From Thermovibrio ammonificans HB-1 (GTDB lineage: Bacteria > Aquificota > Aquificia > Desulfurobacteriales > Desulfurobacteriaceae), in assembly GCF_000185805.1 (NCBI RefSeq), contig NC_014917.1:1-64000 (forward strand): 64,000 nucleotides of DNA, written 5' to 3'. The notes below the pieces were generated by a model, which was not told the DNA's origin, did no database searches, and saw nothing but the letters and a program-made list of their open reading frames with translations. A program made the position numbers and the translations under genes. The stretch's first letter is position 1. Each line of letters begins with the position of its first letter. Shown piece after piece: positions 941 to 60,382 of the stretch.

Positions 941-2484
941 CTTGCCCTCCCAAGGTAGAGGTTTCTAAAGACCCGCTCCATGTTCCAAAAGCTCGCGGGA
1001 CTGTCCTTGAGAGCAAAGCTAATCAGTAGGCCAATCGGGTTGACGTTGACCCTGGGACCGTAGCCCGAACCCGGCCGCAGGGAGAGAAGCTCGTAGATGT
1101 AGGCCGGGACGAACCAGTAGGAGCCGTAGATGTCCTTCAGGGCCTCGTACCGCCCCTCAACCCTGCCGAGGATTCCGGTGTCGCCGGCAAGCTTCATGAC
1201 AGGGGCCGCAAGCTCTTTCAGGGCTTTGAGTATCCGCTGAAGCTCTTGTTTGTCAAGCCTTTCGGCCAATTTGTTAGTACTCCCTAACTTCGCCGCCTTT
1301 TGTTTGTCTTTTAAAACTTTAGGGTCTTTTCCCGTAGTTTCCGGTTTCTGTCGTTGGGTAGCGGTTTTACCGGTGACTTCCGCACATCTTCCTTCCCTCT
1401 CTCTTAGCTTTTTGTTATTTGACGAATTTTGAATATTATGTTTCTCTCCACCACCATATATATTATTAGATGTTGGTGGATATATAGATGTAGTAATTCT
1501 TTTCTTAGATGTAGTAAGGGACTCTTGGGCTTTTGGCTTACTTCCTCCTGCCGGTTTTTGGTGTCCGTCTATTGGGGAATTTTTCAGGTTGGTGTCCGTG
1601 TATTGGGGAATTTGGTGTCCGTCTATTGGGGAATTTTTAGGGGGTGTCCGTCTATTGGGGAATTTCTCTGAAAGGTGGCTTCGTGTTGGAGATTTTTCAG
1701 GGAGAGCAATGCTCCACTCCTTGAGGAAGGGGTGGGAGAGGGAGTAGAGCTGTGCTATCTCAAGGAGAGTCTCGTCCGGCCAGTGAACGGGGGAGCGGAC
1801 GAAAAACTCCGTCCCTTTCCTTGAGGTTTTAACAGAGAGAACTCCTCTGCTTACGAGCTCCTCTGTTAGTTTCCCTACCGACGCCTTGTCTATCGAAATG
1901 GCTCTGGCTATACTCCTCGTGCTCGCAACTGCTTTACTGGTCTCTTTATCTTTGAGGTAGTGCAGGTAGAGGTAGAGAGCCTTGGCCTGTGCCGAGACGG
2001 GGAGCAGGAAGGCAATCTTCGGAACGGGGAAGAACCTGTTGTCGGGGTAGATAAAGGAGAGGTCCTGAGGCAGAACCAGCTCTACCTCGGTTCTTCCGCC
2101 CCTGCCCCTTTTTCCCTTTATCCACCTGACGAACTTATCGGGGTGCTCTCCTCCCGCCTCAACTACCGCAAGGCGATTGAGAGTTTCTATCTCCTTAAAG
2201 AGTTCCTCTATCCTTGACTTGCTCTTTGTTGAAAGGACTCTCCGGAGTTCCTCGGTGGTGGTTCTGGCTGTGCTCCCGTTAAAGCAAAGGGCATAGAGGT
2301 AGCCCATTCCGATTAGGAATCTTGCCTTCCACTTGAACCTGCTCCCTGCCTTAAAGAGAGCAGTTGGATACATCAGGAAAGAGGGGTTGGCGGCCCTGAG
2401 ACGGACGGTAATGGTGTTGACTTCTTCAGGTTTGTGGCTTACAATTTCTTTAGGCATTTGTTGCCTCCTTTGTTTTTTGGGCAT
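937..2484 (-). CDS. Putative plasmid replication initiator with internal origin
   Basis: Probable Rep protein, about 515 aa. The N-terminal half contains two helix-rich winged-helix-like blocks (for example STRSIARAISIDKASVGKL, a helix-turn-helix pattern). A Lys/Thr/Ser/Pro-rich linker follows and then a compact C-terminal domain. The linker DNA carries four iteron-like repeats (1560-1665) beside an AT-rich stretch, so the origin appears to lie inside the gene, as in lambda O. Two in-frame ATGs each have a good ribosome site: 2484 (AAGGAGGGCAAA) and 2457 (AAAGGAGGCAACAA). An upstream GTG at 2559 lacks one. The promoter is TATAAT at 2561-2566 on the minus strand. The Rep assignment rests on iterons and context, since I do not recognise a named Rep family. 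Confidence 0.6.
   Translation of the reverse strand: MPKKQRRQQMPKEIVSHKPEEVNTITVRLRAANPSFLMYPTALFKAGSRFKWKARFLIGMGYLYALCFNGSTARTTTEELRRVLSTKSKSRIEELFKEIETLNRLAVVEAGGEHPDKFVRWIKGKRGRGGRTEVELVLPQDLSFIYPDNRFFPVPKIAFLLPVSAQAKALYLYLHYLKDKETSKAVASTRSIARAISIDKASVGKLTEELVSRGVLSVKTSRKGTEFFVRSPVHWPDETLLEIAQLYSLSHPFLKEWSIALPEKSPTRSHLSEKFPNRRTPPKNSPIDGHQIPQYTDTNLKNSPIDGHQKPAGGSKPKAQESLTTSKKRITTSIYPPTSNNIYGGGEKHNIQNSSNNKKLREREGRCAEVTGKTATQRQKPETTGKDPKVLKDKQKAAKLGSTNKLAERLDKQELQRILKALKELAAPVMKLAGDTGILGRVEGRYEALKDIYGSYWFVPAYIYELLSLRPGSGYGPRVNVNPIGLLISFALKDSPASFWNMERVFRNLYLGRAS
1425..1520. other. AT-rich candidate DNA-unwinding element
   Basis: A strongly AT-rich stretch (ATATATATTATTAG and similar) inside the Rep reading frame, next to the iterons. 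It contains a 12-bp direct repeat, TAGATGTAGTAA, at 1485-1496 and 1506-1517. AT-rich repeats beside iterons are the usual layout of an iteron origin. No DnaA-box search could be run. Confidence 0.5.
1560..1665. repeat. Four iteron-like direct repeats inside rep
   Basis: Four copies of a 23-bp repeat with core GTGTCCGTCTATTGGGGAAT start at 1560, 1591, 1614 and 1643. The second copy has one substitution (CGTG for CGTC). Start-to-start distances are 31, 23 and 29 bases, so the copies fall in all three reading frames of the Rep gene and encode different peptides (NSPIDGHQ twice, IPQYTDTN, FPNRRTP). The DNA rather than the protein is therefore conserved, which supports protein-binding sites of a replication origin. 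Confidence 0.75.
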
Positions 2485-26333: not shown

Positions 26334-27173
26334 TTAAAGTCCCTTAAACTCCAGCCTCTCCACCGCCTCAAAGAGCTCCTCATCAGCTATCCCTATATAG
26401 CCGGCGGTGGTGTTCAGATTGCTGTGCCCCATTAGAGTCCTTATTACCTCAGGCCTTACTCCCCTCCTCGCAAGCTCTGTTCCGAAGGTGTGGCGTAGCC
26501 TGTGGGGGTGGAAGTCGGCTATTCCTACTCTTTTCCCAGCCTGCCTGAGCTTTCTGTATAACCTGTAGTAGGGAGAGGAGCTCCACTTAAAGAGGGGGAA
26601 GAGGTTGAGGTTCTCCTCTATCTCCCTGCTTACTCCTGCGGGCAGAGGCACGACTCTCTCTTTGCCCCCCTTACCCTTTACTCTCACAATCAACCTGTTC
26701 CCCTCCCTCTGAAAACTGAACTTACTCAGGCTCAAGACCTCGCTCGCCCTCAAACCTGCGTAGGCCATCAGCAGGGCGGCGAGGTAGGCTTCCTTGTCCT
26801 TTTCCTTCAGGTAATCAAGGAGCTTCCGAAGCTCCTCCCTTGAGATGGGCTTGGGCTTTTTCTCCTTTGGCTTTGGTAGGTTTCTCCTTGGAATGGAAGG
26901 CAGGGTTATTCCCTTGACTGCCTCAACGAAGTCCCTGAAGTTGCTCCAAGCAGCCAAGCTCTGCTCTACCACGCTGGGAGAGTGCTTTTGTAGGGCGTGG
27001 TAGAGGAGCTCTTTCCCGGTCTGTCCCTGCAAGTCCTCAACTGTTTCGGCTCCCAAGACCTCAAGGGCTTTAATCAAGTCCCCCACACGCTTTTTATACA
27101 TTCGGTAGGTGTGGGGACTCGTGGAATTGTGCAGGGCAAGGAGCCAGTCGGTATAGAGCTCTGAGAGCTTCAT
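26334..27173 (-). CDS. Tyrosine recombinase (Xer/integrase family)
   Basis: About 279 aa. An N-terminal SAM-like core-binding domain (LSELYTDWLLALHNSTSPHTYRM-type pattern) precedes the catalytic domain. Catalytic residues are visible: Arg in YAGLRASEVLSL, the Lys loop in RVKGKGGKERVVPL, HPHRLRHTFGTELARRG (H-x-x-R), GHSNLNTTAGYIGI with His and the nucleophile Tyr. It could resolve plasmid multimers, integrate the element, or invert the segment at 52488-53138, as Rci does in R64. GAGGAG lies upstream of the ATG at 27173. An extra TTG start at 27191 is less likely. Confidence 0.85.
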   Translation of the reverse strand: MKLSELYTDWLLALHNSTSPHTYRMYKKRVGDLIKALEVLGAETVEDLQGQTGKELLYHALQKHSPSVVEQSLAAWSNFRDFVEAVKGITLPSIPRRNLPKPKEKKPKPISREELRKLLDYLKEKDKEAYLAALLMAYAGLRASEVLSLSKFSFQREGNRLIVRVKGKGGKERVVPLPAGVSREIEENLNLFPLFKWSSSPYYRLYRKLRQAGKRVGIADFHPHRLRHTFGTELARRGVRPEVIRTLMGHSNLNTTAGYIGIADEELFEAVERLEFKGL

Positions 27174-27187
27174 CTGTTCTCTACTCC

Positions 27188-27508
27188 TCAAAACAGGTAG
27201 ATTGCCTTTCCTCCTTCAGGTTCCCAGACGCCAGACACTCCGTAGTAGATTACCGTCTTGCCGTTGCAGTCTAACTGCACTCTGTTGGGCTCGTCGGGGC
27301 AGTATTGGGCTTTTACCCGGTAAAACCGCCTTTTCTTCTCTAACAGCTCCTCTTCCTTTTCGGCCGTGTAGCACTCTTTAGGAAGCTCCCTGTCAATAGA
27401 GAGCCAGCCTTCCTTGTAAGAGTGGCACAGGTAGTAGGAGTAGCCGAAGAAAACGGCCGTGGCTACTCCCAGAAAGACCCAGAACGCTGACCAGAGAACC
27501 TTATCCAT
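27188..27508 (-). CDS. Bitopic membrane protein
   Basis: About 106 aa. One N-terminal membrane helix (WSAFWVFLGVATAVFFGYSYYL) is followed by a charged domain with four cysteines (CHSYKEGW, PKECYTAEK, QYCPDEP, LDCNGKT). The latter are consistent with a periplasmic disulfide-bonded fold. Unknown. The start overlaps the upstream gene by 8 bases. Confidence 0.5.
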   Translation of the reverse strand: MDKVLWSAFWVFLGVATAVFFGYSYYLCHSYKEGWLSIDRELPKECYTAEKEEELLEKKRRFYRVKAQYCPDEPNRVQLDCNGKTVIYYGVSGVWEPEGGKAIYLF

Positions 27509-44656: not shown

Positions 44657-44690
44657 CATAATTATAGGGAAATTTCCCTATAATTTAGGT
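44657..44690. promoter_or_regulatory. Back-to-back divergent promoters in a large palindrome
   Basis: ATTATA at 44661-44666 (TATAAT on minus) and TATAAT at 44679-44684 (plus) lie in a nearly perfect palindrome centred on AAATTT at about 44670-44675. It drives the tra operon leftward and the pilus operon rightward. A shared regulator could bind here. Confidence 0.6.
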
Positions 44691-44710: not shown

Positions 44711-45142
44711 ATGAGGAAGACGCTCACGCTCCTTGCAGCGGCCGTGCTGGTCGTTCCGACAATGGCTACGGCCGCTACGGTCGTCGGAAGGGTGGACAAC
44801 TACCTCATCTTGAAAGGGAAGAACGGCTACAGGATAGTCTCCGAGGAGGAGCTTCAAAGGCAGAGGGAGGAGAAGCTCCGCAGGGAGCGGGAAGCTCAGA
44901 TGAGGAAGCTCGCTGCCCGCAGGCAGGCCCTATTTGAACAGATAGTCGAAAAACTGATGCACGGAGCCGGACGCCCCGTTTACTCAAGAATAAAAGGATT
45001 TGACGTCGAAAGGGTTCTCGACGCGGGACCTTACTTCGGGGCGGTAATTTCAGGCTCTCCCGACCCCAAAACCCTGAGAAAGGCTTTCAAGTTCGTTAAA
45101 CGAGTAGGGAACAAATACTACGTGGTAGGAGAATGGCAATGA
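44711..45142 (+). CDS. Periplasmic protein before the secretin
   Basis: 143 aa. A signal peptide (MRKTLTLLAAAVLVVPTMATA) is followed by a short strand region and an Arg/Glu helix (EELQRQREEKLRREREAQMR). A C-terminal domain ends in YYVVGEWQ. R64-type operons have small exported proteins (PilL, PilM) before the secretin, and this may be an equivalent. AAGGAGGTTGCCG precedes the ATG. The end overlaps the secretin gene by 10 bases. Confidence 0.55.
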   Translation: MRKTLTLLAAAVLVVPTMATAATVVGRVDNYLILKGKNGYRIVSEEELQRQREEKLRREREAQMRKLAARRQALFEQIVEKLMHGAGRPVYSRIKGFDVERVLDAGPYFGAVISGSPDPKTLRKAFKFVKRVGNKYYVVGEWQ

Positions 45143-46851
45143 GGAAGCTGCTGACACTTCTGACGGCCACGGCTCTTGTATCCTCTTGCGGAGGAGTATC
45201 GGGACTCTCCAAGGTGAAAGAGCCCAAGATAACTCCTAAGCCTACTTACTCTTTCGGAGAAGTAACGCTTCCGAAGGATCCCCTTGAAAGTTTAAAAAAG
45301 ATTAAAGTTCACGCCGACTTCAAGGGAGTTCCCGTCAGCGTTGCGGTCAAGGCCATTTGCAAGGCCAAGAAGTTGGCCTGCAACCTTACGGGATTTAACA
45401 GCCAGTTTCCGATTACCATTGAGAACTTCAACGGCTCCCTCTACGACCTGCTCAAGGTAATCGAGAGGACCACCCGCTTTAAGTTCTCCTACGAAGACGG
45501 CGTTCTTACGGTGGTCAACGCCGACTCAAACGAGTACGCAAAAGAGGTAGAAAGGAAGCTGGCCCGAGAGAAGCTCAAGGTTGAAGGGCCCAAGATTACC
45601 CTCAACCTTCAGGGAGTTCCCCTCTTTACCGTCTTCAACGAAATCAACGCCGCAACGGGCTACACGGTAGTTCCCGACAGGGACGTTGACCTTACCCAAA
45701 AGGTCTTCGTTGCCGTCAAGGACCTTCCGCTCGACAAGGCCCTCAAGGTAATCCTTTCACCGCTGGGCTACTCGTTCACCATAGACCCGGAGAACAAGGA
45801 GATTAAGGTCTCCGCTCTCGTAACGAGAGTCTTCAGAATACCCTACATACCCAAGCAGGTGAGCTTCAACTTCTCCGCAGGCGAGTCCTCAACCGTTGAA
45901 GGCAGCACTTCCGGAACCACGACCACCTCATCGTCGAGCGGAAGCTCCGGAACAAATGAGAAATCTGTAACGATTCAGACGGACTTCTGGAGCGAGCTTG
46001 AGAAAAACATAAAGAACGTGGTCTCAAAGAGAGGCTCTTACTTCGTGAACAAGACCGCACGGATAGTAACGGTAACCGACACTCCGGAGAACATCGCAAA
46101 GGTCGAGAAGGTAATCAACTCCCTCATAAAGGCCGTATCCCAGCAGGTTCAGTTCAGGGTGGCCATCTACGAGGTCACCTACTCGGACGAGTTTCAGAGC
46201 GGAGTTGACTGGTCGGCGGTGTTCGGCTCCCAGAACCTCCAGATTACCACCGGTCAGAGCACGGGATACGTCTTTGACCTGTCGGGCTATTTCAAGGCAG
46301 GGAAGAGCAATCCCTTCAACTACCTCGTGAAGCTCCTCTCCCGCTACGGAAAGGTCAAGACCATTTACGACAACTACGTCAGGACGCTTTCGGGAGAGAC
46401 GGTTGCGATAGTGCCCGGGGAGACCTACAGGTTCCTTGAGAGCATAGAGACCCAGTCTCAGGCCGACACCAAGCTGGTGACTCAGGTTCCCGTCTTCAAG
46501 GAGCTCTCCCTCGGCATTCAGCTCTACATAACTCCCCTGAAGAGGGACGACGGAACCACCCAGTACGAGCTGGACGTGACCAACCGCTTTATCAAGAGCC
46601 TCAAGACCTACACCTTTGACAACAACACCTACACCGTTCCGGAGCTGATAGGAAGGACGGATATATCCCTCACCACCGTAATACCCAAGCACCACTTTGA
46701 GGTGATAACGGGAATCAAGCAGTACAAGCTCGACAGCTCCCAGTCCGGCGTTCCGGGACTGATGGATATTCCCGTGGCAGGGGAGCTTTTCAAGGGAAGA
46801 AGCAGGAAGGCCACCCTCTCTGAATACATAGTGGCCATTTACTCCTATTAG
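45133..46851 (+). CDS. PilN/BfpB-type lipoprotein secretin
   Basis: 572 aa outer-membrane pore for the type IVb pilus. Lipobox LVSSCGG (Cys about 20) marks it as a secretin lipoprotein, as in PilN of R64. Two N-domains follow (VPVSVAVKAICKAKKL and VPLFTVFNEINAATGYTVV). A Ser/Thr-rich insert (about 255-275) precedes the secretin domain (VQFRVAIYEVTYSDEFQSG ... LMDIPVAGELFKGRSRKA). Length and order fit the family. The start may be ATG 45133 or 45139. Confidence 0.85.
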   Translation: MAMRKLLTLLTATALVSSCGGVSGLSKVKEPKITPKPTYSFGEVTLPKDPLESLKKIKVHADFKGVPVSVAVKAICKAKKLACNLTGFNSQFPITIENFNGSLYDLLKVIERTTRFKFSYEDGVLTVVNADSNEYAKEVERKLAREKLKVEGPKITLNLQGVPLFTVFNEINAATGYTVVPDRDVDLTQKVFVAVKDLPLDKALKVILSPLGYSFTIDPENKEIKVSALVTRVFRIPYIPKQVSFNFSAGESSTVEGSTSGTTTTSSSSGSSGTNEKSVTIQTDFWSELEKNIKNVVSKRGSYFVNKTARIVTVTDTPENIAKVEKVINSLIKAVSQQVQFRVAIYEVTYSDEFQSGVDWSAVFGSQNLQITTGQSTGYVFDLSGYFKAGKSNPFNYLVKLLSRYGKVKTIYDNYVRTLSGETVAIVPGETYRFLESIETQSQADTKLVTQVPVFKELSLGIQLYITPLKRDDGTTQYELDVTNRFIKSLKTYTFDNNTYTVPELIGRTDISLTTVIPKHHFEVITGIKQYKLDSSQSGVPGLMDIPVAGELFKGRSRKATLSEYIVAIYSY

Positions 46852-49676: not shown

Positions 49677-50045
49677 ATGGAAGAAAAACTGAAGAAAGTT
49701 GAAAAGCTGTTAGAGCAGGCCCTTGCGGAAATCCAGAGGTTGAGGGCTGAACTTGCGGGCAGGAAAACTCCGCCCGCCTCGGAACTGCTGAAACTCAAAC
49801 TGATTGCGGAGCTCCTCAAAAGGGGCGGAGAAGTCTCAAAAGAAGAGCTCCACGAAATCTGGAAGAAGATGGGGAAAGACCCCAGAGGACTCGGCGGGTT
49901 CTTTAAGGGCAAGAACCCGATAATGGTGGAGACGGCCAAGGGAACCGTCTCCCTAACCAAAGAGGCCCTGAGAATTGCCCACGAATACAAGGACTACATG
50001 AAAGGCTACGGAATAGAGTTTGAGGAGGTAAACGGCCATGCGTAG
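49677..50045 (+). CDS. Small coiled-coil/winged-helix protein
   Basis: 122 aa. An N-terminal coiled coil (EEKLKKVEKLLEQALAEIQR) is followed by a helical segment resembling a winged helix (LKRGGEVSKEELHEIWKKMG, then GGFFKGKNPIMVETAKGTVS). Cytoplasmic. The start ATG lies next to the right arm of the inverted repeat. It may be a repressor acting on that repeat. The end overlaps the C11 lipoprotein gene by 8 bases. Confidence 0.5.
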   Translation: MEEKLKKVEKLLEQALAEIQRLRAELAGRKTPPASELLKLKLIAELLKRGGEVSKEELHEIWKKMGKDPRGLGGFFKGKNPIMVETAKGTVSLTKEALRIAHEYKDYMKGYGIEFEEVNGHA

Positions 50046-52155
50046 GAAGTTAATAACCGCAACCGCACTTATACTAACCTCTCTTCTTGCCTCCTGCGGT
50101 GGAGGAGGCGGTGGTGGAAGCTCCACCACGACCAGCTCCACCACCACCTCAACTACCAAGGGGCTAACCGTAGTCCCTGCAACTACCAAAGCAGTAGAGG
50201 TTGACCCTGCTTACCTGTTCAGGGCTACCTCTCCCACTCTTGTGTGTGCAAACGGAACCGTAGTAGTTAACCCCGACACAGTTTCAGACACCCAGCTCCA
50301 CTTTCCTCTACCCTCTACGGGGAGCTTCCAGGGCTGTGTAGTGGCCTTCACGGCTCCCACAGGGCAGGTTATCTACACCAGCCTCTCCGCCGTAGAGGGA
50401 ACGGGAGGAACGGTAGCCCTCAACTCCGACCTTACCCTCTCTAAAGTAGATGGAGACTTAACCCTTCAGCCCCTTGCCGACTCAGACGGAGACGGAGTAG
50501 CAGACACCTGTGAGGGCAAGGTAGTTGACCACGACAACGACTCCGTAGAGAGCGAGCCCGTTTACGACAAGACTGTCATAGTCGTCCTTGAGGGAGACGA
50601 CCTTGGAGACAGCTCCCTTACCAGTTACCTTGAGGACAACTACGCCGACCTTGTGGCAGGCATCAAAGCGTCACAGCCTCAGAATACACGCTTTGTAGTC
50701 ATCTGGGACGGAGGGCAGAAAAACGGCCTTGACGGACAGAGCGACGTCTTTATCCTTGACCCTCAATCGGGCAAGGACTTCACCACTCTGACTAACGACA
50801 TCTCTCAGGTTCTCTCCGGAGCTTCCGTCTCCCAGTTCGGCTCCGACGGGCTTCTCTACTGGTATGCTCCCTCTGACAACCTCTCCAACCACCTCAAGGA
50901 ACTGATAGAGGTAGCAGTTAAGCTCTTCCCTGCAAAGAGCTACGACCTTATCATCAGCGACCACGGAGACGGCTGGGTGAGCCTTCCCACTCCCACCACG
51001 AGGACGGTTCTCTTTGAGAGTTTCAGCGACGGCAATCAGACTGGAACTACTTGGCTTGGAACCAAACAGTTTGCCGATACCGTTCTTGCTCCCCTTGCTA
51101 AAGAGGGCATAAGGTTCGACCTGATTGGCTTTGACGAGTGCCTGATGGGAGAGCTTGCTACCCTGACTCAGATAGCTCCCTACGCTCAGGAGATAGTAGC
51201 CTCTCCCGAATTTGAACTGGGAACGGGCTGGGGAAGCGTATGGAAGAACCTGCCCTCGTGGTATGCACAGGGACTTGACAGCTGGACGATAGCAAAGAAC
51301 ATCGTTGACGGCTACTATCAGTATTACTACGACAATCCTCCCAACGTGGCCCTTGCCTACCCGCAGGTGGTTGCCCTGACGGCAGTTAAGAGTGAAGCTC
51401 TTAAAGAACTTGCACAGGCTTTTGATACCTTCGCAGGGAGCCTCTACCAGACTGCTCTGAATGAGAGGGATAATGGGCAGATGTATGAGTATTTCTATTC
51501 GCATTTCGGGAATAATGACCTTAATACGTATCAGGGAGTTTTTTGGTGGCTAAATACTTCCGATTATACGGGAGGCGATACCATAGCCCAGGAGCTCGAT
51601 AACGCAACACAGGAGTATGCTGGTTACTACGGAGGCTCTCAAGGAACAGATACTCTTGGTTTTGACCTTGTTCAAACCGTATCAGCTATCGGATATACTG
51701 CAAGACTTGTTGAACTGGGTTACACTAATTTTTACGCAATGCAAGGCTTAGCTTACACTCCATATAACAGTCAATACGCCCTCACCCCTTCCTTTGCCCC
51801 CGACACGGTTCAGAACGCTCTCAACTTCCTCTCCACCTACAACTCCGTTAAGAGCAGTGACGGTCTCTACACGAAGTATCTCCAGCTCAACATGGACGGA
51901 ACGGTTGACACGAACGTAACAGGTTCGGGACTCTCTCTCATCTACCCCTACACCTCTCCCGACTACGCTACCTCTCCCAAGTTAGAGCTTTGCAACTACT
52001 CCAACTTCGTGGAGAGCTACAACTCCACTCTGCCTAACTACACGGCCTTTGTTAACACCGTCTTTGGTGTGATGTGGCAGGCAGTTAAGGACGCAGGGCT
52101 GGACAGCCAGTTTGCTTGTGATGTGGGAAGCGGAAATGTAGTGTGGAGCCAGTAG
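50038..52155 (+). CDS. C11 (clostripain)-family cysteine protease lipoprotein
   Basis: 705 aa surface protease. The lipobox is SLLASCGG (Cys20), followed by a Gly run and a Ser/Thr linker. A calcium-type acidic stretch (DSDGDGVADTCEGKVVDHDN) lies near residue 155. The catalytic pair is His at about 311 in IISDHGDGW and Cys at about 367 in GFDECLMGELATL. Family members act extracellularly. A patch at about 51430-51780 uses AT-richer codons than its flanks, as if exchanged by recombination. Its place in the pilus cluster suggests a cell-surface role. Confidence 0.8.
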   Translation: MRRKLITATALILTSLLASCGGGGGGGSSTTTSSTTTSTTKGLTVVPATTKAVEVDPAYLFRATSPTLVCANGTVVVNPDTVSDTQLHFPLPSTGSFQGCVVAFTAPTGQVIYTSLSAVEGTGGTVALNSDLTLSKVDGDLTLQPLADSDGDGVADTCEGKVVDHDNDSVESEPVYDKTVIVVLEGDDLGDSSLTSYLEDNYADLVAGIKASQPQNTRFVVIWDGGQKNGLDGQSDVFILDPQSGKDFTTLTNDISQVLSGASVSQFGSDGLLYWYAPSDNLSNHLKELIEVAVKLFPAKSYDLIISDHGDGWVSLPTPTTRTVLFESFSDGNQTGTTWLGTKQFADTVLAPLAKEGIRFDLIGFDECLMGELATLTQIAPYAQEIVASPEFELGTGWGSVWKNLPSWYAQGLDSWTIAKNIVDGYYQYYYDNPPNVALAYPQVVALTAVKSEALKELAQAFDTFAGSLYQTALNERDNGQMYEYFYSHFGNNDLNTYQGVFWWLNTSDYTGGDTIAQELDNATQEYAGYYGGSQGTDTLGFDLVQTVSAIGYTARLVELGYTNFYAMQGLAYTPYNSQYALTPSFAPDTVQNALNFLSTYNSVKSSDGLYTKYLQLNMDGTVDTNVTGSGLSLIYPYTSPDYATSPKLELCNYSNFVESYNSTLPNYTAFVNTVFGVMWQAVKDAGLDSQFACDVGSGNVVWSQ

Positions 52156-52224: not shown

Positions 52225-52467
52225 ATGAGCTGGTACAACAAAGATGACCTTCGCAGGAGAGGCATCGACAGATTCTTCGTGTCGTGTGACGAGGAGTATG
52301 AAAAGGAAAAACTTGTTAAGTGGACAGTAGACAAGTATGCGTTGTCAAAAGAAGTAGCAACAGAACTTGTGGAGAAGTGTTGTAAAAAAGTTACCGCTCC
52401 TCGAGATAGGAAGGCGTTTGAGGAGTGTATCTACCTCGAAGTTCTTAAGAAATTTCACCAGGAGTAG
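52225..52467 (+). CDS. Hypothetical protein, 80 aa, beside the invertible site
   Basis: Charged helical protein with four cysteines (VSCDEEYEKEK, VEKCCKKVT, FEECIYLEV). AAAGGAGTGGGACA precedes the ATG. It ends in a hairpin terminator 20 bases from the inversion site. It is too small to be a recombinase but could be an accessory factor. Unknown. Confidence 0.5.
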   Translation: MSWYNKDDLRRRGIDRFFVSCDEEYEKEKLVKWTVDKYALSKEVATELVEKCCKKVTAPRDRKAFEECIYLEVLKKFHQE

Positions 52468-52484
52468 GGAGCGTCCCTACTCCT
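52460..52484 (+). terminator. Hairpin terminator beside inversion site
   Basis: AGGAGTAGGGA pairs with TCCCTACTCCT (11 bp, loop GCG) directly at the stop codon of the 80-aa gene and 3 bases before the repeat at 52488. Confidence 0.6.
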
Positions 52485-52487
52485 CCC

Positions 52488-52509
52488 ATAACAAAGCTGA
52501 GTTTGATGG
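52488..52509 (+). repeat. Inversion-site copy 1 (22 bp)
   Basis: Begins ATAACAAAGCTGAG and ends TTTGATGG, identical over 22 bases to the reverse complement of 53117-53138. It codes for NKAEFDG in the plus-strand orphan cassette, in the same frame as in the expressed gene. Confidence 0.8.
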
Positions 52510-52726
52510 GGGAGTAAGACTCTCAGGAGTTTTTATGTCTTCACAGGCATCCTTTTTCGCTTCAGGAACTGCTAACGACGGTATTGCTTTGGGAAGAGCA
52601 ATAACGGGAGCAATAAGACGATGCAAACTGGCAGGCTACGACGGCGGGATAATTGTTCAAGCTGGCATAGGCGGGTACTCAGGCGAGTTCACGGCATATG
52701 CAGTAGCAGAATGCTATGAGAAGTGA
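52510..52726 (+). pseudogene. Silent alternative C-terminal cassette
   Basis: An open frame without its own start or ribosome site, continuing from the NKAEFDG codons of the site. It encodes about 72 residues (GVRLSGVFMSSQASFFASGT ... AYAVAECYEK) and ends with TGA inside the shared palindrome. Inversion of 52510-53116 would fuse it in frame to the exported protein encoded from 53958, replacing the present C-terminus. It is therefore best read as a silent cassette, not a decayed gene. Confidence 0.75.
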
Positions 52727-52748
52727 GCAGCTCAAGCTGCTCACTTCT
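52719..52748. terminator. Shared palindromic terminator inside invertible segment
   Basis: AGAAGTGAGCAGCT (52719-52732) pairs with AGCTGCTCACTTCT (52735-52748), loop CA. Both cassettes read Lys-TGA-GCAGCT into it from opposite sides, so whichever is expressed ends at the same structure. Confidence 0.75.
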
Positions 52749-53958
52749 TAATTATAAGACCGTTACTATAGTCATAATCATCTCTCAAACAGAGACCGTA
52801 GCTTCCAATATATTTATACCCGGGAGCACAACCGTAGTATGCTTTCCACCAAGTAAGGCCGCCACCTCCCGTTACACCTATTTTTTTCAGCTCATCCGGC
52901 ACTCTTGGTCCGTAACGCGGGTCAAACATTCCGGCATAGGCTACAATTCCCTTTGAGTCGTAAAGAACAGCATACCTCTCCCACCAATGCTTCTGATAGG
53001 GAATTTTCTTGACAGCAGACGGGTAACCGCTTGGGATTCCAACAAAGTAGGTCAGCGGATAATAAGTATCCGCAGCATCTATAATTGTTTTCGCCGCAAC
53101 AATTCCTCCACTGGCTCCATCAAACTCAGCTTTGTTATTGGTACTTATCGGAGTAAGCCCCGCAGTCTTCGAGGTTATAGAGGTATCCATAGTAGTAAAG
53201 GCCTTTTTCATACCGTTCGGGTTCAGGTACATGTCGTAGAAGGTTTGGTCAGCACGTTGTTTGAACTGTTGCATTTTGGTTTGCTGGTAATTGTTATAAC
53301 TGGAATAAGGGTCGTAAGTAATACTTTGACCATTTGCTAAACCTTGAGCAAGACTTTTGTAATTTGCTCCCGCGTTCCTGTAATACCAATACCTGTAATC
53401 CCTTATAGACAACCCGGTCTGTCCCTCTGCAAGGTTCTTAACGTTCCTACCAGCGTAGTTGTAGTAGTAATACCTGTAATCCGTTATCCCCAGACCAGTC
53501 AGACCCTGGGCAAGGTTACGATAGTTCCTGCCCGCAAACTGAAAGAGGTAAGTCCTGCCGTCCTGAACGCCCACACCAGCAGCGTTCACGGTAAAGTTCC
53601 GGTAGTTGTTCCCGACCGTCTTAAACAGAGCATTGTTCGTGGAGCTTCCCGGGTCAGCGTTAGCTGCTCCCCACACAAAGTTGCGGTAGTTTGCTCCGTA
53701 ATACCTGAAGTAGGTCGGGGAGTAGGTTGAGGTGGTGCTCTTTCCGGTAGCTCCCTCTACGAAAGCCTTGACGTTCGCTCCTGCATTCTGGGCCTGAGTA
53801 TCCGAGAGGGTAGAGAGGTTGGTGGTTCCTGCAAGCCCCTCCACCACCTTTTTCATCTTCTCGTAGTCGGCAGGTATCGTGTAAACCGGCCCGGCTGCAT
53901 AAGCCGCCGCAACTGTTCCGACCACTACTCCCACAGCGACTGTCAGGAGCTTCCTCAT
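52741..53958 (-). CDS. Repeat-containing exported protein with invertible C-terminus (PilV-like shufflon protein)
   Basis: 405 aa. The signal peptide is MRKLLTVAVGVVVGTVAAAYA. Residues about 85-215 contain several tyrosine-rich repeats of the form YAGRNYRNLAQGLTGLGITD. The variable end starts after TNNKAEFDG, at the 22-bp site, and runs about 125 residues to the palindromic terminator. It has no prepilin motif, unlike PilV of R64, but it lies in a type IVb pilus cluster and could be a surface adhesin. Promoter TGTAATTGTAGGGAA lies near 53998-54010. GGGAGGTGATAG precedes the ATG. Confidence 0.75.
   Translation of the reverse strand: MRKLLTVAVGVVVGTVAAAYAAGPVYTIPADYEKMKKVVEGLAGTTNLSTLSDTQAQNAGANVKAFVEGATGKSTTSTYSPTYFRYYGANYRNFVWGAANADPGSSTNNALFKTVGNNYRNFTVNAAGVGVQDGRTYLFQFAGRNYRNLAQGLTGLGITDYRYYYYNYAGRNVKNLAEGQTGLSIRDYRYWYYRNAGANYKSLAQGLANGQSITYDPYSSYNNYQQTKMQQFKQRADQTFYDMYLNPNGMKKAFTTMDTSITSKTAGLTPISTNNKAEFDGASGGIVAAKTIIDAADTYYPLTYFVGIPSGYPSAVKKIPYQKHWWERYAVLYDSKGIVAYAGMFDPRYGPRVPDELKKIGVTGGGGLTWWKAYYGCAPGYKYIGSYGLCLRDDYDYSNGLIIKK
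53117..53138 (-). repeat. Inversion-site copy 2 (22 bp)
   Basis: On the plus strand it begins CCATCAAACTCAGC and ends TTTGTTAT, the exact inverse of the copy at 52488-52509. It lies inside the exported-protein gene, at the boundary between constant and variable parts. Confidence 0.8.
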
Positions 53959-54307: not shown

Positions 54308-55522
54308 TTACGCTGAAAACTCTGAAGACTCCAACATGGATTGCAGCTCCCTTGAGTCGTAAGTAACCTTCATGGCCGTATCTTTGGTAATCACGCCCTC
54401 CATCACAAGGCGTGTAAGCTCGCTGTTGAGGTACTTACAGTTCTCCCGGTCTCGCCTTATGAAGTCCCTAATCTGCTTAACGTCGCCCTCCTTAATCCTG
54501 CCTCTGACGAACTCGTCAACCAGGAGAACTTCACAGACCGCCCTGACTGCAAAGTCAACGGTCAGGACGAGCCTCTGGGCAACGACCAGCTTCAGTTGGT
54601 CTGCGAGTATCGTTCTGATTTGGGGCTGCTCGTCCGGCGGGAAGACGTCCACTATCCTGCTTATCACTCCCCAGGCCGAGGAAGTGTGCAGGGTGGTGAA
54701 GGTAAGGTGGCCTGTTTCGCTTGCCATAAGGGCCGTCTTTATCTCCTCGGGAGTCCTGGACTCGCCGATGTAGATTACGTCCGGGTGCTGCCTGAGGGCG
54801 TTGTGCACTCCGGAGATAAACGAGTCGGTGTCCCTGCCGACCTCCCTCTGAATGAAGAAGGCGTTCTTGTTATCAAAAACGTACTCAATCGGCTTCTCTA
54901 TGGTGACGACGACCCTCGACCTGTCGTCCTCGGAAAGGTAACGCATTATTCCGGCAAGCGTTGTCGACTTACCGGAACCGGTAGGACCGGTAACTATGAC
55001 GAGACCCGAGTTCCACTGCCGAACCTTACCGATAACCTCGGGCAGGCGAAGCTCGTCAAAGGGGTGCGGAACGTAAGAGTAGAGTCTCCTTATCGAAAGA
55101 ATCGTGCTGCCGTCGGAAAGGGCAACGTTAAGCCTAAACCTGCCGATAAATCTGTCTCCCTTGTGGAGCGTGAAGGAAGTATCAATCTCCTTGGCATTGC
55201 TCGGCAGGGAGAGAGCTTCCACAAACGCTCTTATGTCGCTGCGAACGACCTTGCTCTTCAAGGGAGCGGGAATCTCCTTGGGAAGCTCTTTCATTCTCTC
55301 CTTTATCCTTGCAGCTTCCTCCTCGTCGCCCCTTTCCTTGGCCTCTTCGTAGAGAGCTTCGTAAAGGAGCATCTTTATCCTCACGGCGGAGCCCGCTATC
55401 TCCACGGTCTTGAAAAAGGGCGGAACTCCCTCCCTTATGTAGATGTCAGTGGCAAACTGCTCCTCCGCGAACTTGAAAATCTCCCTGAAAACCTCCGGAA
55501 GCGTCCCAAACTCCAGCTTCAT
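54308..55522 (-). CDS. PilT-like retraction ATPase
   Basis: 404 aa. Walker A VTGPTGSGKSTTLAGIMRYL, Walker B region HPDVIYIGESRTPEEIKTAL, His box GHLTFTTLHTSSAW, and the PilT-type segment VDVFPPDEQPQIRTILAD. It lacks the tetracysteine zinc site of PilB, which supports a retraction motor (as BfpF/PilT). The N-terminus contains a helical insert (MLLYEALYEEAKERGDEEEA). AGAGGAGGAGAAAG precedes the ATG. Confidence 0.85.
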   Translation of the reverse strand: MKLEFGTLPEVFREIFKFAEEQFATDIYIREGVPPFFKTVEIAGSAVRIKMLLYEALYEEAKERGDEEEAARIKERMKELPKEIPAPLKSKVVRSDIRAFVEALSLPSNAKEIDTSFTLHKGDRFIGRFRLNVALSDGSTILSIRRLYSYVPHPFDELRLPEVIGKVRQWNSGLVIVTGPTGSGKSTTLAGIMRYLSEDDRSRVVVTIEKPIEYVFDNKNAFFIQREVGRDTDSFISGVHNALRQHPDVIYIGESRTPEEIKTALMASETGHLTFTTLHTSSAWGVISRIVDVFPPDEQPQIRTILADQLKLVVAQRLVLTVDFAVRAVCEVLLVDEFVRGRIKEGDVKQIRDFIRRDRENCKYLNSELTRLVMEGVITKDTAMKVTYDSRELQSMLESSEFSA

Positions 55523-55546
55523 CTTTCTCCTCCTCTTTGAATAGAG

Positions 55547-56602
55547 TTACATCGCCCTCTGAATCGAGGTAGTCATCGGCAGCAGCAAGCCTATGTAGAG
55601 GAAAGCCACGTAGCCGCCGACGAGCATGAGGAAGGCGGCCTGAACGAGAGTGATTGTCTTCTCCATAGACTTGTCCACTATAACCTTTAGCAGCCTGATG
55701 GAAGGCTCCACCTGCTTGGGAATGTTACCTATTCTGATACCGCTCTTTATAAACGAGTAGTCCGAGTGGGATAGAAGTCCCCTCTCAACAAAAACCTCCA
55801 TGGCCTTTTGCAAATCCTCTCCTCCCTCGAGACGGTAAAGAACCTCCTCTATCGCTTCCCTCCATTTCTTTGAAAAGCCCGCCTCGGACAGGAACTGAAA
55901 GACCTTGGTTTCCGACCAGCTTGCCTCAAAGAGGATTTTCAACCAGTTGAGGAACCGGAGCTTCTCAAACTCCCTGTAGGCGGGCAGGTAGGGTTTCCAG
56001 ACACCGCTTTTGAGGAAAAGAATCACCAGGGCTGCAAGGGCTACAACGGCCGCAACAAAGAGGAGCGGGTGCTGAGAAACGACGTATGCGGCTTTTACCG
56101 TTGCGGGCAACCTGTCCTTATAGGTTACAGTGCCCACTATCTTAGGAGTGAACTTGAAAACCATTATGTAGGTGAAGAGCAAGCCGATGATAATGGAAAG
56201 AACAGGACCTATCAGGGTCTTCTTGAGTTTTCCCAGAAGCTCCACTTCGGTCTCAAGGAGGTCGGCCAACCTAACCGCCATCTTCGGCAGGTTACCGGCC
56301 TTAATACCCGAAGCGATAGAGGCCCTAACGTCTTCGTCGAATATGTCGGCCTCGAGGAAGACCTTGGCAGGCTCCTGGCCCGCCTCGATTTCATAGACCA
56401 TCTCCTCGAGCTTCTCCGCAACCCAGCCCACCCGCAGCTGCTCGGGAACGAGGTGGGCAAGGGAGGGGGGAACCTCGATAAGACCGTATTTCCTGTAGTC
56501 CTCCACAAGGGAGAGCAAGGCGTCCCTTATGGAGAAGTTAGCCGACACCATCGAAGCGAGGATTCTAACGATTTTGGCCTGCTCTTCACGGGGTAGGGCC
56601 AT
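55547..56602 (-). CDS. PilC/GspF-like pilus inner-membrane platform
   Basis: 351 aa, with the duplicated T2SF pattern: two helical cytoplasmic domains and three membrane helices (IGPVLSIIIGLLFTYIMVF, LLFVAAVVALAALVILFL, and AAFLMLVGGYVAFLYIGLLL). The repeats ASGIKAGNLPKMAVRLADLL and KSGIRIGNIPKQVEPSIRLL match the family. It corresponds to R64 PilR or BfpE. The start overlaps the previous stop (TAATG). Confidence 0.85.
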   Translation of the reverse strand: MALPREEQAKIVRILASMVSANFSIRDALLSLVEDYRKYGLIEVPPSLAHLVPEQLRVGWVAEKLEEMVYEIEAGQEPAKVFLEADIFDEDVRASIASGIKAGNLPKMAVRLADLLETEVELLGKLKKTLIGPVLSIIIGLLFTYIMVFKFTPKIVGTVTYKDRLPATVKAAYVVSQHPLLFVAAVVALAALVILFLKSGVWKPYLPAYREFEKLRFLNWLKILFEASWSETKVFQFLSEAGFSKKWREAIEEVLYRLEGGEDLQKAMEVFVERGLLSHSDYSFIKSGIRIGNIPKQVEPSIRLLKVIVDKSMEKTITLVQAAFLMLVGGYVAFLYIGLLLPMTTSIQRAM

Positions 56603-57123
56603 TACTTACACCTCACATTCGTCCCTCTAATGAGGAAGTAGCGGCACCTGTTCACGCTGGAGTCCCACCGAACGTTACCGGCAGAGAGGTTGCCGTCGTC
56701 AACAGCCCTATCGAGCTTGTAGCAGAAGTCTTTAGAGGCTCCGTTGATAACCAGCTGAACGTTGCTTCCCCAGGTACAGGCTATCCAGCCGGTACCGCTC
56801 CAGGGAGTATGGGGCCAGTAATTGAGGGAAACGTTGTTGTTCGGCGGCTCCACGTAAGGGCCGTTCCAACCCGGTGCTCCCACGGCGTTTGTCCAGAGCT
56901 GCTGAGTCTTTGAGGGGTAGTAGCCCGTATCAGCGTAGTAGGCAGACATGGCCCTCTTGAGGTTGTTGGCGAACTCAACAGTTTTGGCTACCCTGGCCTT
57001 GTCGGTACTCCCTCCGTAGTAGATGTAAAGACCGAGGGCAAGGATTGAGATGACCGCAACTACAACCATCAGCTCCACGAGGCTGAAAGCCTTACGGGAA
57101 GCTCTCAAGCCCTTTCTCTTCAT
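56602..57123 (-). CDS. Type IV prepilin-like protein
   Basis: 173 aa. The leader MKRKGLRASRKA ends at an Ala before FSLVELMVVVAVISILA, with the essential Glu at +5. Cleavage after Ala rather than Gly is less common. The C-terminal domain has four cysteines and the pattern GWNGPYVEPP, shared with the pilin at 58254 (GWSGPYVQPP). No prepilin peptidase gene is present in the window. GGGAGGAGAT precedes the ATG. Confidence 0.8.
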   Translation of the reverse strand: MKRKGLRASRKAFSLVELMVVVAVISILALGLYIYYGGSTDKARVAKTVEFANNLKRAMSAYYADTGYYPSKTQQLWTNAVGAPGWNGPYVEPPNNNVSLNYWPHTPWSGTGWIACTWGSNVQLVINGASKDFCYKLDRAVDDGNLSAGNVRWDSSVNRCRYFLIRGTNVRCK

Positions 57124-57141
57124 ATCTCCTCCCTAAGACGG

Positions 57142-58188
57142 TTATTCTCCCGTGCTCATTACGGTTATGAATCCGTCGGAGACGGAAGCCGAAAAAGCTC
57201 CTCTGTCTGTTGCAGGAGTGTTGGGGGGAGCCCCGTCCGGATAACCGTCTCCGTCAGGGTCGAAGCAGAGGTTAACGTAAACAGGGTTACCAAAGGCGTC
57301 CACCTTGTAGTCGGTAGAGAGGTTCAGATGAGACAGAATCGTGTCTATCGAACAGGTCGAATGGGTTACAGAACCGTCGCAGATAACAGAGGGCCAGACT
57401 GCCCGCAGGTTTGAACAGGTAGCGTCGGTGCAGTAGTCGTAAGGCTTGCTGGAGCACAGCTGCACGTACCAGTCGACCTTGAGGTCGTCCTCCTCGGCAA
57501 GGCCGTAAGGGTAGGTTCTCTCGGTTACCTCTACCGAGAGCCTCTGCCTGAAGTAGGCGTCAAGGGCGTCGGCTATGGTCTTCAGGCGGTCGTAGGTGAA
57601 CTTCCGGTATCTCTCATCGAGGGAGGCAGAGCTCCAGGTGTAGGTAAGGTCGTCGGCCGTGCCGAACACTCCGTCCCTGCCCGCAGAGGTGAAAGTTATC
57701 CTAATCGGGGAGCCTGCCGTCGGGTCGTAGGGAGTGGAGTGGGTTTTGGCTCCGTTTTCGTAGGAGAAGCGAAGCTCCCTTCCCCAGCCGTCGTAACAGG
57801 CAACGTCGTAGCCTGCCCCGATATTCGCCAGCTTGCAGCCGGCGTCCTCAAAGGCCTTCAGAATCTGAGAGTCGGCAGGCGTGAGGTTGTCCTTCCAGAG
57901 AACAAGTCTTGCTGTGTAGCTCCAGCACCCCGGAGGTGTTAGCCAGCTTCTCGCCCTCGAACAGTCCGGCTGGTTTATCCAGCCGGGATTGTTTCTCCTG
58001 TAGGCGAGAACAGTCTCATAGTGGAAGTTCAGGGCCTTGGCCAGCTTCTCAAACCTGTTTTCGGTTTCAGCCTTCTTGTTCCTCTCTACCATCGGGACTA
58101 TGAACTCGGTAGTTCCGATGGCGAGAATCGAGAGAATGGCCACGGCAATTATTAGTTCAAGAAGTGTAAAACCCTTCCTGCCTCTCAC
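57142..58188 (-). CDS. Large prepilin-like protein (minor pilin)
   Basis: 348 aa, much larger than a major pilin. The leader MRGRKG is followed by FTLLELIIAVAILSILAIG. The large C-terminal part has many cysteines and SAGRDGVFGTADDLTYTW, a calcium-binding-like pseudopilin loop. It also has DPDGDGYPDGAPP near the end. It may be the initiating or tip pilin. The GTG start has GGAGGCTGAAG upstream. Confidence 0.75.
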   Translation of the reverse strand: MRGRKGFTLLELIIAVAILSILAIGTTEFIVPMVERNKKAETENRFEKLAKALNFHYETVLAYRRNNPGWINQPDCSRARSWLTPPGCWSYTARLVLWKDNLTPADSQILKAFEDAGCKLANIGAGYDVACYDGWGRELRFSYENGAKTHSTPYDPTAGSPIRITFTSAGRDGVFGTADDLTYTWSSASLDERYRKFTYDRLKTIADALDAYFRQRLSVEVTERTYPYGLAEEDDLKVDWYVQLCSSKPYDYCTDATCSNLRAVWPSVICDGSVTHSTCSIDTILSHLNLSTDYKVDAFGNPVYVNLCFDPDGDGYPDGAPPNTPATDRGAFSASVSDGFITVMSTGE

Positions 58189-58230
58189 CTTCAGCCTCCT
58201 CCGGTAGTCCCCCTTCAGAGAACCACCGGA

Positions 58231-58247
58231 GGGGGCTGAAAGCCCCC
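58231..58247 (-). terminator. GC hairpin after major pilin
   Basis: GGGGGCT / AGCCCCC stem with a three-base loop, 7 bases beyond the stop of the pilin gene at 58254 on the minus strand. No T tract follows, so it may act as partial attenuator or as a 3' end that protects the pilin mRNA. Confidence 0.45.
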
Positions 58248-58253
58248 GGAGAG

Positions 58254-58784
58254 TTAGATGCAGGAAACGTTGGAGGACACGGTGATTGTGAGCGTATGGT
58301 TGGTGTCGTCGTAAACGGCGTTGCCGCTGGAGAGGTTGCCGTCGTCGTACTTCTCGTCGTAGGCCTCTGCAACGTTCTTGGGAACGTTGGAGAAGACAAT
58401 CTGCTCCACGCCGTTAGTGGAGTCGCAGGAAACTGTGATAGTGGCTCCTGAACCGCTCTTGAGAGACGTGGCGCTGGTATCTCCGCCCGGAGGCTGAACG
58501 TAAGGTCCGGACCAGCCCGGAATCGGGTTGCCGTTGGCATCGGCGTTCTTCCAGAGCTCCTGTATGGAGCTCGGCATGTAGCCGGTCTGCTCCTCGAACA
58601 GGTTCAGGGCAGTCTCGAGCTTGTTGGTCTCCTCGGCAATCTTAGTTGCCTTTGTGTCGATGAGGTTGTTCCTGTTGTAGAGGTAAAAAGCGACGGCGAA
58701 GATTGCGACGATGGCAACGGCGATGAGGAGCTCCACCATCGTGAAACCCTTCCTCATCAGTCTTTTCAGTTTTCTCTTCTCCAC
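58254..58784 (-). CDS. Probable major type IV pilin
   Basis: 176 aa. The leader MEKRKLKRLMRKG is followed by FTMVELLIAVAIVAIFAVAF, with Gly before the cleavage and Glu at +5. The C-terminal domain holds a disulfide pair (VSCDSTNG, VSSNVSCI). It is directly downstream of the PilB gene and followed by a strong hairpin, as expected for the most expressed subunit. GGAGGTGGGAA precedes the GTG start. Confidence 0.75.
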   Translation of the reverse strand: MEKRKLKRLMRKGFTMVELLIAVAIVAIFAVAFYLYNRNNLIDTKATKIAEETNKLETALNLFEEQTGYMPSSIQELWKNADANGNPIPGWSGPYVQPPGGDTSATSLKSGSGATITVSCDSTNGVEQIVFSNVPKNVAEAYDEKYDDGNLSSGNAVYDDTNHTLTITVSSNVSCI

Positions 58785-58795
58785 TTCCCACCTCC

Positions 58796-60382
58796 TTAAA
58801 GGATTTCTAAAGCGTCTTCTATGGTCACTTCTTCCTGGCGGACTCTCTCAAGTACGTCATCGCTATACGGCCTGAAGCCCCACTTTTTGGCGTGGGACAG
58901 GAACTCCTCCGTCTCAAAAGTTCCTCCGGAGCCGATGATGAAGTCCCGTATCTCCCGGTTAAACTCGAGAATTCCGAGCACGGGGATTCTACCTACAAAA
59001 CCTCCCTTACACTGCCCGCAGGTCTGCTTTATCTGCCTGCTGAGAACCATCTGGCCCTTGAGCTTCTCATCCAGAAGCTCCCTGGTCTCTACGGGAAGCC
59101 TTGCGAGGAACTGGTCGTTTATCTCCACCCTCGGGAACAGCCCCAGCTCCCTGCACCTGGGGCAGACTCTCGGAACAAGCCTCTGGGCGACGATTAGCCT
59201 CATCTGGTTAACCACCTTGGCAATGTCCGGGTCCTGAGCGAGGTCAAGGAGCCTCTTTATGGCCTCAACCTCGTCGTTGGCGTGGAGGGTAGAGATTAGA
59301 AGGTGTCCGGTATTTGAGGCCGCTATGGCCGCCCTTGCGGTTTCCCTGTCCCTTATCTCTCCGACGAGTATTACATCGGGGTTCTGCCTCATAAAGGCCC
59401 TGATTGCATGGGCGAAGTCTATGCCGATGAGCTTCCCGTCGTCGTCGTAAACGGGAAGGCGAACCTCTACCTGCTGAACTCCGGGGATTTCGGCCTCAAC
59501 AGGGTCCTCAATGGAGACAATCTTCCTCTTCTCCGGGTCGGCCATTAGGGCCATGGCCCTGATTAGAGTCGACTTTCCGGAGCCCGTAGGGCCAACCACG
59601 AGAATCATTCCCTTCGACAGCAGAGGGTATCCGGAGAGCCTCTCTATGTGCTGAAGCGAGTAACCAAGCTCCTCGAGAGAGCGGAGCTTCTGGTTCTTGG
59701 GAAGTATTCTGATAACACAGGAGGGCCCGTTAACTGTAGGAATAACCGACACCCTCATGTCGCAGGGAGTAGCCTTGAGCTTCTCGAGGAAATCCCGGAG
59801 CTTCTTCTTCGAAGGCTCCGTGGAGGTTACGTCCCTGAAGTTTATCGAGGCATCTATGGGAACGTTCAGGTTCGAGGTCTTTGCGTCTGCGAGAGTCAAA
59901 AACTGCCTCAAAAGCCTCTGGCCGACTTCCTTGTCAAGAGTCCGGACGGTCTCTATCCGCCCGAGGGAGTTCCTCACCCTGACTCTGTAAGCGGCGGGAG
60001 TAGGTTCGTAGTGAATATCTCCCCAGCCGCTTAAAACCGCCTGCTTTATCAGGTTAAGCCAGAAGTTGTCTTCATCTCCCTCTTCCCTGCCGGGAACGGG
60101 AGGAACGATGACTATCTCATAGTCGGTAAGCTCAGAGGGAACAATAGAGGGGTTCCAGGTGTAAACAGTCCTTCTGTCATGGTCCACGAAAATTTCCCCC
60201 TCCTTGCGGGCACTTTCCGGAGGGGCAGGGACAAACTCATAACCCCGTTCCTCTGCGGCCAGACGAAAGAGCTCCGGCCTTACAACGGGCAGAGAGGCTA
60301 TGGCCTCCCAGACGTTCTTGCCTTTCTCTATCTCAAGGAGAATTGCTTCCTTTTCATCAGGTTGCAGGGAGTCCAGGAACAT
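58796..60382 (-). CDS. PilB/GspE-type pilus assembly ATPase
   Basis: 528 aa. Walker A VVGPTGSGKSTLIRAMALMA, the Asp box PVEAEIPGVQQVEVRLP, Walker B NPDVILVGEIRDRETARAAI, and His box GHLLISTLHANDEVEA. The zinc site is intact (CPRCRELGLF and CGQCKGGFVG). It extends the pilus, paired with the PilT-like motor. First gene of the minus pilus run. GAGAGGTGACAG precedes the ATG. Confidence 0.9.
   Translation of the reverse strand: MFLDSLQPDEKEAILLEIEKGKNVWEAIASLPVVRPELFRLAAEERGYEFVPAPPESARKEGEIFVDHDRRTVYTWNPSIVPSELTDYEIVIVPPVPGREEGDEDNFWLNLIKQAVLSGWGDIHYEPTPAAYRVRVRNSLGRIETVRTLDKEVGQRLLRQFLTLADAKTSNLNVPIDASINFRDVTSTEPSKKKLRDFLEKLKATPCDMRVSVIPTVNGPSCVIRILPKNQKLRSLEELGYSLQHIERLSGYPLLSKGMILVVGPTGSGKSTLIRAMALMADPEKRKIVSIEDPVEAEIPGVQQVEVRLPVYDDDGKLIGIDFAHAIRAFMRQNPDVILVGEIRDRETARAAIAASNTGHLLISTLHANDEVEAIKRLLDLAQDPDIAKVVNQMRLIVAQRLVPRVCPRCRELGLFPRVEINDQFLARLPVETRELLDEKLKGQMVLSRQIKQTCGQCKGGFVGRIPVLGILEFNREIRDFIIGSGGTFETEEFLSHAKKWGFRPYSDDVLERVRQEEVTIEDALEIL

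Follow-up and report, generated by a model that had tools for sequence, protein, structure and literature searches.

Where a type IV pilus gene run ends on a plasmid of Thermovibrio ammonificans HB-1, two short inverted repeats raise a simple question: can the tail of an exported protein be exchanged by flipping the DNA between them? We consider this probable. Read from its sequence, the locus resembles a two-state site-specific inversion switch that would work like a one-segment shufflon, and we infer that the inversion takes place. The organism comes from a deep-sea vent and has an optimum of 75 °C (PMC3570795). Its genome consists of 2 contigs with 1,759,526 bp in total, and the host replicon of the repeats is a 76,561-bp plasmid. 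Throughout, the window is the whole stretch of DNA that was analysed, 64,000 nucleotides, corresponding to bases 1-64000 of this plasmid. The segment and the gene that it enters comprise the following features.

52460..52485: second hairpin, at the end of an 80-aa ORF and beside the left site (z = -4.2)
52488..52509, plus strand: left 22-bp site (inverted repeat), coding for NKAEFDG; putative recombination site
52490..52726, plus strand: cassette B, a silent alternative C-terminus that would supply 71 aa past the constant part after inversion
52719..52748: perfect hairpin with 14-bp arms at the cassette junction, holding both stop codons (z = -6.5 and -4.6)
52741..53115, minus strand: cassette A, the C-terminal 124 aa and stop, the frame expressed in the sequenced orientation
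53116..53958, minus strand: the 281 aa that stay constant in the tyrosine-rich repeat protein, an exported product carrying a Sec-type signal; the gene has a strong Shine-Dalgarno site and a homologue in G007, a genome of another genus in the same family
53117..53138, minus strand: right 22-bp site, within the minus-strand gene, coding for NKAEFDG; putative recombination site

Both copies of the repeat read ATAACAAAGCTGAGTTTGATGG, an exact 22-bp match in inverted orientation with 607 bp in between, and the invertible unit measures 651 bp when both repeats are included. For the whole plasmid, chance alone would give about 2.3e-5 such 22-bp inverted pairs within 5 kb, and the runner-up among exact inverted pairs at 50-3000 bp spacing is a 16-mer. 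A genome-wide search allowing up to 3 mismatches found no further copies of the site, which leaves two in total. The sequences flanking the left and right sites are unrelated, and half-site symmetry within the repeat was not significant. The initial annotation had the coordinates and spacing of the repeats right, and its claim that both of them encode NKAEFDG is confirmed, as each copy is read as N-K-A-E-F-D-G.

What would a flip of this segment do? In the sequenced orientation the minus-strand gene encodes a 405-aa product with tyrosine-rich repeats, and it starts, as was first suggested, with a Sec-type signal and has no prepilin motif. At the left repeat a plus-strand frame opens whose phase matches that of the right repeat within the gene. 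When the segment is inverted in silico the reading frame is kept, the first 281 residues are unchanged, and residues 282-405 (124 residues) are exchanged for 71 unrelated ones, giving a product of 352 aa. This in silico result agrees with the swap of about 125 for about 72 C-terminal residues that had been proposed. The locus has the anatomy of a site-specific inversion switch, with a segment that lies between short inverted repeats and that would alter a gene product if it flipped.

The two cassettes converge on the hairpin at their junction, within which both TGA stops lie, and this hairpin is a possible terminator for either orientation. Both cassettes have a lower GC3 than the constant part. 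Coding scores are positive for both and highest in the proposed frame, with the score of cassette B poorly separated from those of non-coding frames.

Searches of Pfam, NCBIfam, PHROGs and PDB sequences with the protein returned nothing solid, no recognised adhesin domain was found, and there were no relatives of the whole protein, the constant part or cassette B among the genome contigs, viral contigs, plasmids and phages. Single-sequence AlphaFold2 gave a pLDDT of 39 for the whole protein. For cassette B the model was weak, a strand-strand-helix-strand-strand fold (pLDDT 61), and a structural search with it found nothing significant.

A comparison comes from within the phylum, where only one other genome among 136, that of G007, has a homologue of the exported protein (L006:11660-12889, G007 C71). 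The homologue lies next to a C11 peptidase gene, convergent as on the plasmid and in the same gene order, and the two peptidases are 52% identical over 419 aa. Similarity between the exported proteins runs to residue 278, within the repeat-coded NKAEFDG, and then ends, as would be expected if the tail were a swappable module. The long G007 tail has no significant similarity to cassette A, making it a third, unrelated tail, and nothing in G007 matches cassette B. This supports, at the level of sequence, the reading of the tail as a modular unit. The G007 gene has no inverted repeats of this kind. It is also without its 5' part and N-terminal signal and has no in-frame ATG start, features that could point to a decayed or partial copy or to an effect of the draft assembly. 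Elsewhere in the family we saw weak matches of cassette A to G002 and of cassette B to G012, and as both contain stop codons we took them as chance.

The relevant neighbours of the gene are listed here.

45133..46851, plus strand: PilN-like secretin, in the opposing pilus gene run
50038..52155, plus strand: C11 (clostripain-family) peptidase, lipoprotein-like, the convergent neighbour that is kept in G007
52225..52467, plus strand: 80-aa ORF between the peptidase and the left site, with no family and no convincing relative
54308..60382, minus strand: pilus genes upstream in the same strand run, encoding a T2SSE-type ATPase, a PilR/GspF-like protein, prepilin-like proteins and a PilQ/GspE-like ATPase

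A minus-strand pilus run with a PilQ-like ATPase, prepilin-like proteins, a PilR-like platform protein and a second T2SSE-type ATPase ends with the variable gene, which faces a plus-strand run with the PilN-like secretin and the C11 peptidase. The peptidase is a possible processing partner of the variable protein. A secretin, an assembly ATPase, an inner-membrane platform protein and prepilins occur together here, the combination that identifies a type IV pilus cluster. The initial annotation had been more specific and called this a type IVb cluster; the type IV part stands, and the IVb assignment rests on a PilN model that is the best match but sub-threshold.

Elsewhere the plasmid carries TraC-, TraU-, TraF-, TraK-, TrbI- and TraG/TraD-type genes. 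These transfer genes are F-type, and judged from them the plasmid is of the conjugation type, a description of gene content that makes no claim of self-transfer. The plasmid further encodes an actin-like protein and has GGDEF as well as EAL genes. Several repeated motifs were noted on the plasmid in passing. A palindromic TATAATTATAGGGA-type motif lies near the starts of several gene runs, both pilus runs included (window 11676, 44658-44685 and 60410; also 5654 and 23335), and is a possible shared promoter or operator. A 16-bp palindrome, TTCCTGC(CC/GG)GCAGGAA, has five copies across the plasmid (window 16974, 23230, 23519, 41083 and 48347) and additional half-copies. At window 1557-1665, in or near an HTH_36-domain gene, GGTGTCCGTCTATTGGGGAATTT is present as four near-identical direct repeats, which are possible replication iterons.

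A switch of this kind needs an enzyme, and the candidate is a single gene.

26334..27191, minus strand: Xer-like tyrosine recombinase, candidate invertase, on the basis of profile matches, catalytic residues and a tree

The HB-1 genome has two tyrosine recombinases, one per replicon, and at the cut-offs used it has no serine or Piv/IS110-type recombinases. The plasmid enzyme, the tyrosine recombinase nearest to the segment, has 285 aa, lies 26 kb away and retains the catalytic R, K, H-x-x-R, H and Y. Like members of the Xer family it matches the archaeal-type XerA and the XerC/XerD models, and in the tree it groups beside the family's chromosomal Xer; unlike them it is plasmid-borne, scores below the curated cut-offs and sits on a long branch. 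Its closest relative in the family is the G007 enzyme, with which it groups at 100/99, and recombinase and repeat protein occur together in both of the two genomes that have the repeat protein. That said, an actin-like gene is also common to the plasmid and the G007 contig that carries the homologue, and the recombinase may be a plain part of the plasmid backbone, so that a role in plasmid resolution is possible. On sequence grounds we regard this Xer-like recombinase as the likely agent of the inversion.

How closely does the locus resemble known switches? The obvious model is the PilV shufflon of the IncI plasmids R64 and TP114, driven by the recombinase Rci, to which the initial annotation had likened it. 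There too a conjugation-type plasmid carries a type IV pilus cluster; its last gene combines a constant N-terminal part with C-terminal tails that can be exchanged, and the cassettes lie in opposite orientation between short sites. The tails are similar in size, 69-113 aa in TP114 (PMC9045228) against 124 and 71 aa here, and in TP114 the choice of mating partner in broth depends on the variable PilV tail (PMC9045228). When the segment is inverted in silico, in-frame C-terminal tails are exchanged, as they are by inversion in the R64 shufflon, and in both cases the gene concerned closes a type IV pilus operon on a plasmid: on R64 this gene is pilV, next to the shufflon and rci. The differences lie in the parts. 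R64 has several invertible segments and sfx sites, whereas here there are two sites, one segment and two tails. The core of the R64 site, GTGCCAATCCGGT, was found in seven copies in the R64 control and is unrelated to the 22-bp site. R64 PilV is a type IVb prepilin-like minor pilin, unlike the Sec-exported protein described here, and no match to it was found on the plasmid. Rci adjoins the R64 shufflon and has a C-terminal extension, which the distant Xer-like enzyme does not have; the two are 25% identical over 181 aa, and Rci is a different, longer enzyme (PMC11852207, PMC8138268). The likeness to a PilV shufflon therefore holds for the tail-switch anatomy at the end of a pilus operon and fails for the site, the type of recombinase, the number of segments and the identity of PilV. 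With one segment, a different site, no PilV or prepilin and no adjacent Rci, the locus does not belong to the R64 shufflon family.

Single-segment switches of surface or tail proteins are found in other settings, e.g. Moraxella pilin with Piv, phage tail-fibre inversions and hsdS inversions. These share with the present locus one segment, two states and a crossover within the coding region, but they differ in the kind of protein, and no Piv/IS110-type or serine recombinase was found in the HB-1 genome at the cut-offs used.

Other explanations deserve consideration. The initial annotation described the plus-strand cassette as start-less and in the same frame as the minus-strand gene. The shared frame stands, but the cassette does have an in-frame ATG at 52535 with AGGAG 5 nt upstream, opening a possible 63-aa ORF. 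Shine-Dalgarno sites of this strength precede 46 of 64 gene starts on this plasmid and 10 of 189 internal ATGs, so cassette B may also, or instead, be a 63-aa gene. Could it be an independent gene that ends the plus-strand operon, with the in-phase fusion after inversion incidental? In that case inversion, if any, would mainly truncate or alter the repeat protein or shift a small gene between operons. Frame agreement has about a one-in-three probability by chance alone. However, the stretch from the repeat up to ATG 52535 is open and in phase, and because of this inversion would make the fusion anyway; in addition, the common hairpin holds the stops of both cassettes, and the first strand of the weak AlphaFold2 model precedes ATG 52535. 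We consider an independent gene quite improbable.

It is unlikely, but somewhat less far-fetched, that the arrangement is a relic, with repeats left by an old inversion or duplication and a segment that no longer flips, so that the cassette A form alone is made. A single orientation is known, from one assembly, the G007 homologue is without such a segment, and the candidate recombinase is distant. Against this, the 22-bp copies are identical, the silent frame has stayed open and in phase, and the plasmid has a tyrosine recombinase with intact catalytic residues. A 651-bp unit bounded by terminal inverted repeats could also suggest a non-autonomous transposable element inserted in the gene, and this we find barely credible. 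We rejected it because the repeat has no further copies in the genome when 3 mismatches are allowed and the flanks show no target duplication; besides, G007 has no empty site but a homologue with a different tail.

We return, then, to the inversion switch. By recombining at its two 22-bp sites, the 651-bp segment would flip and exchange cassette A (124 residues) for cassette B (71) on the exported protein, and the central hairpin would end the transcript in either orientation. The protein is the last product of the plasmid's type IV pilus operon and would most likely be a surface or pilus-associated adhesin. By analogy with the PilV tails, its variable tail may set what the cell binds, perhaps the mating partners of a conjugation-type plasmid. 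More speculatively, and in our view less likely than not, the system may have evolved independently on the conjugative plasmid of a deep-branching thermophile, where at about 75 °C a Xer-type enzyme would flip the tail of a tyrosine-rich adhesin, Sec-exported and not a prepilin, on which the binding of the type IV pilus system would depend.

Most known examples of phase-variable surface proteins come from host-associated bacteria, and in the open-access literature that we searched we found no description of such a switch in Aquificota. If the segment does flip, a distant lineage would have arrived, using different parts, at tail-swapping of pilus-linked proteins on conjugative plasmids. This would suggest that the choice of partner or surface is a general problem for such plasmids. 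It would also put a small, two-state, heat-stable inversion system on offer.
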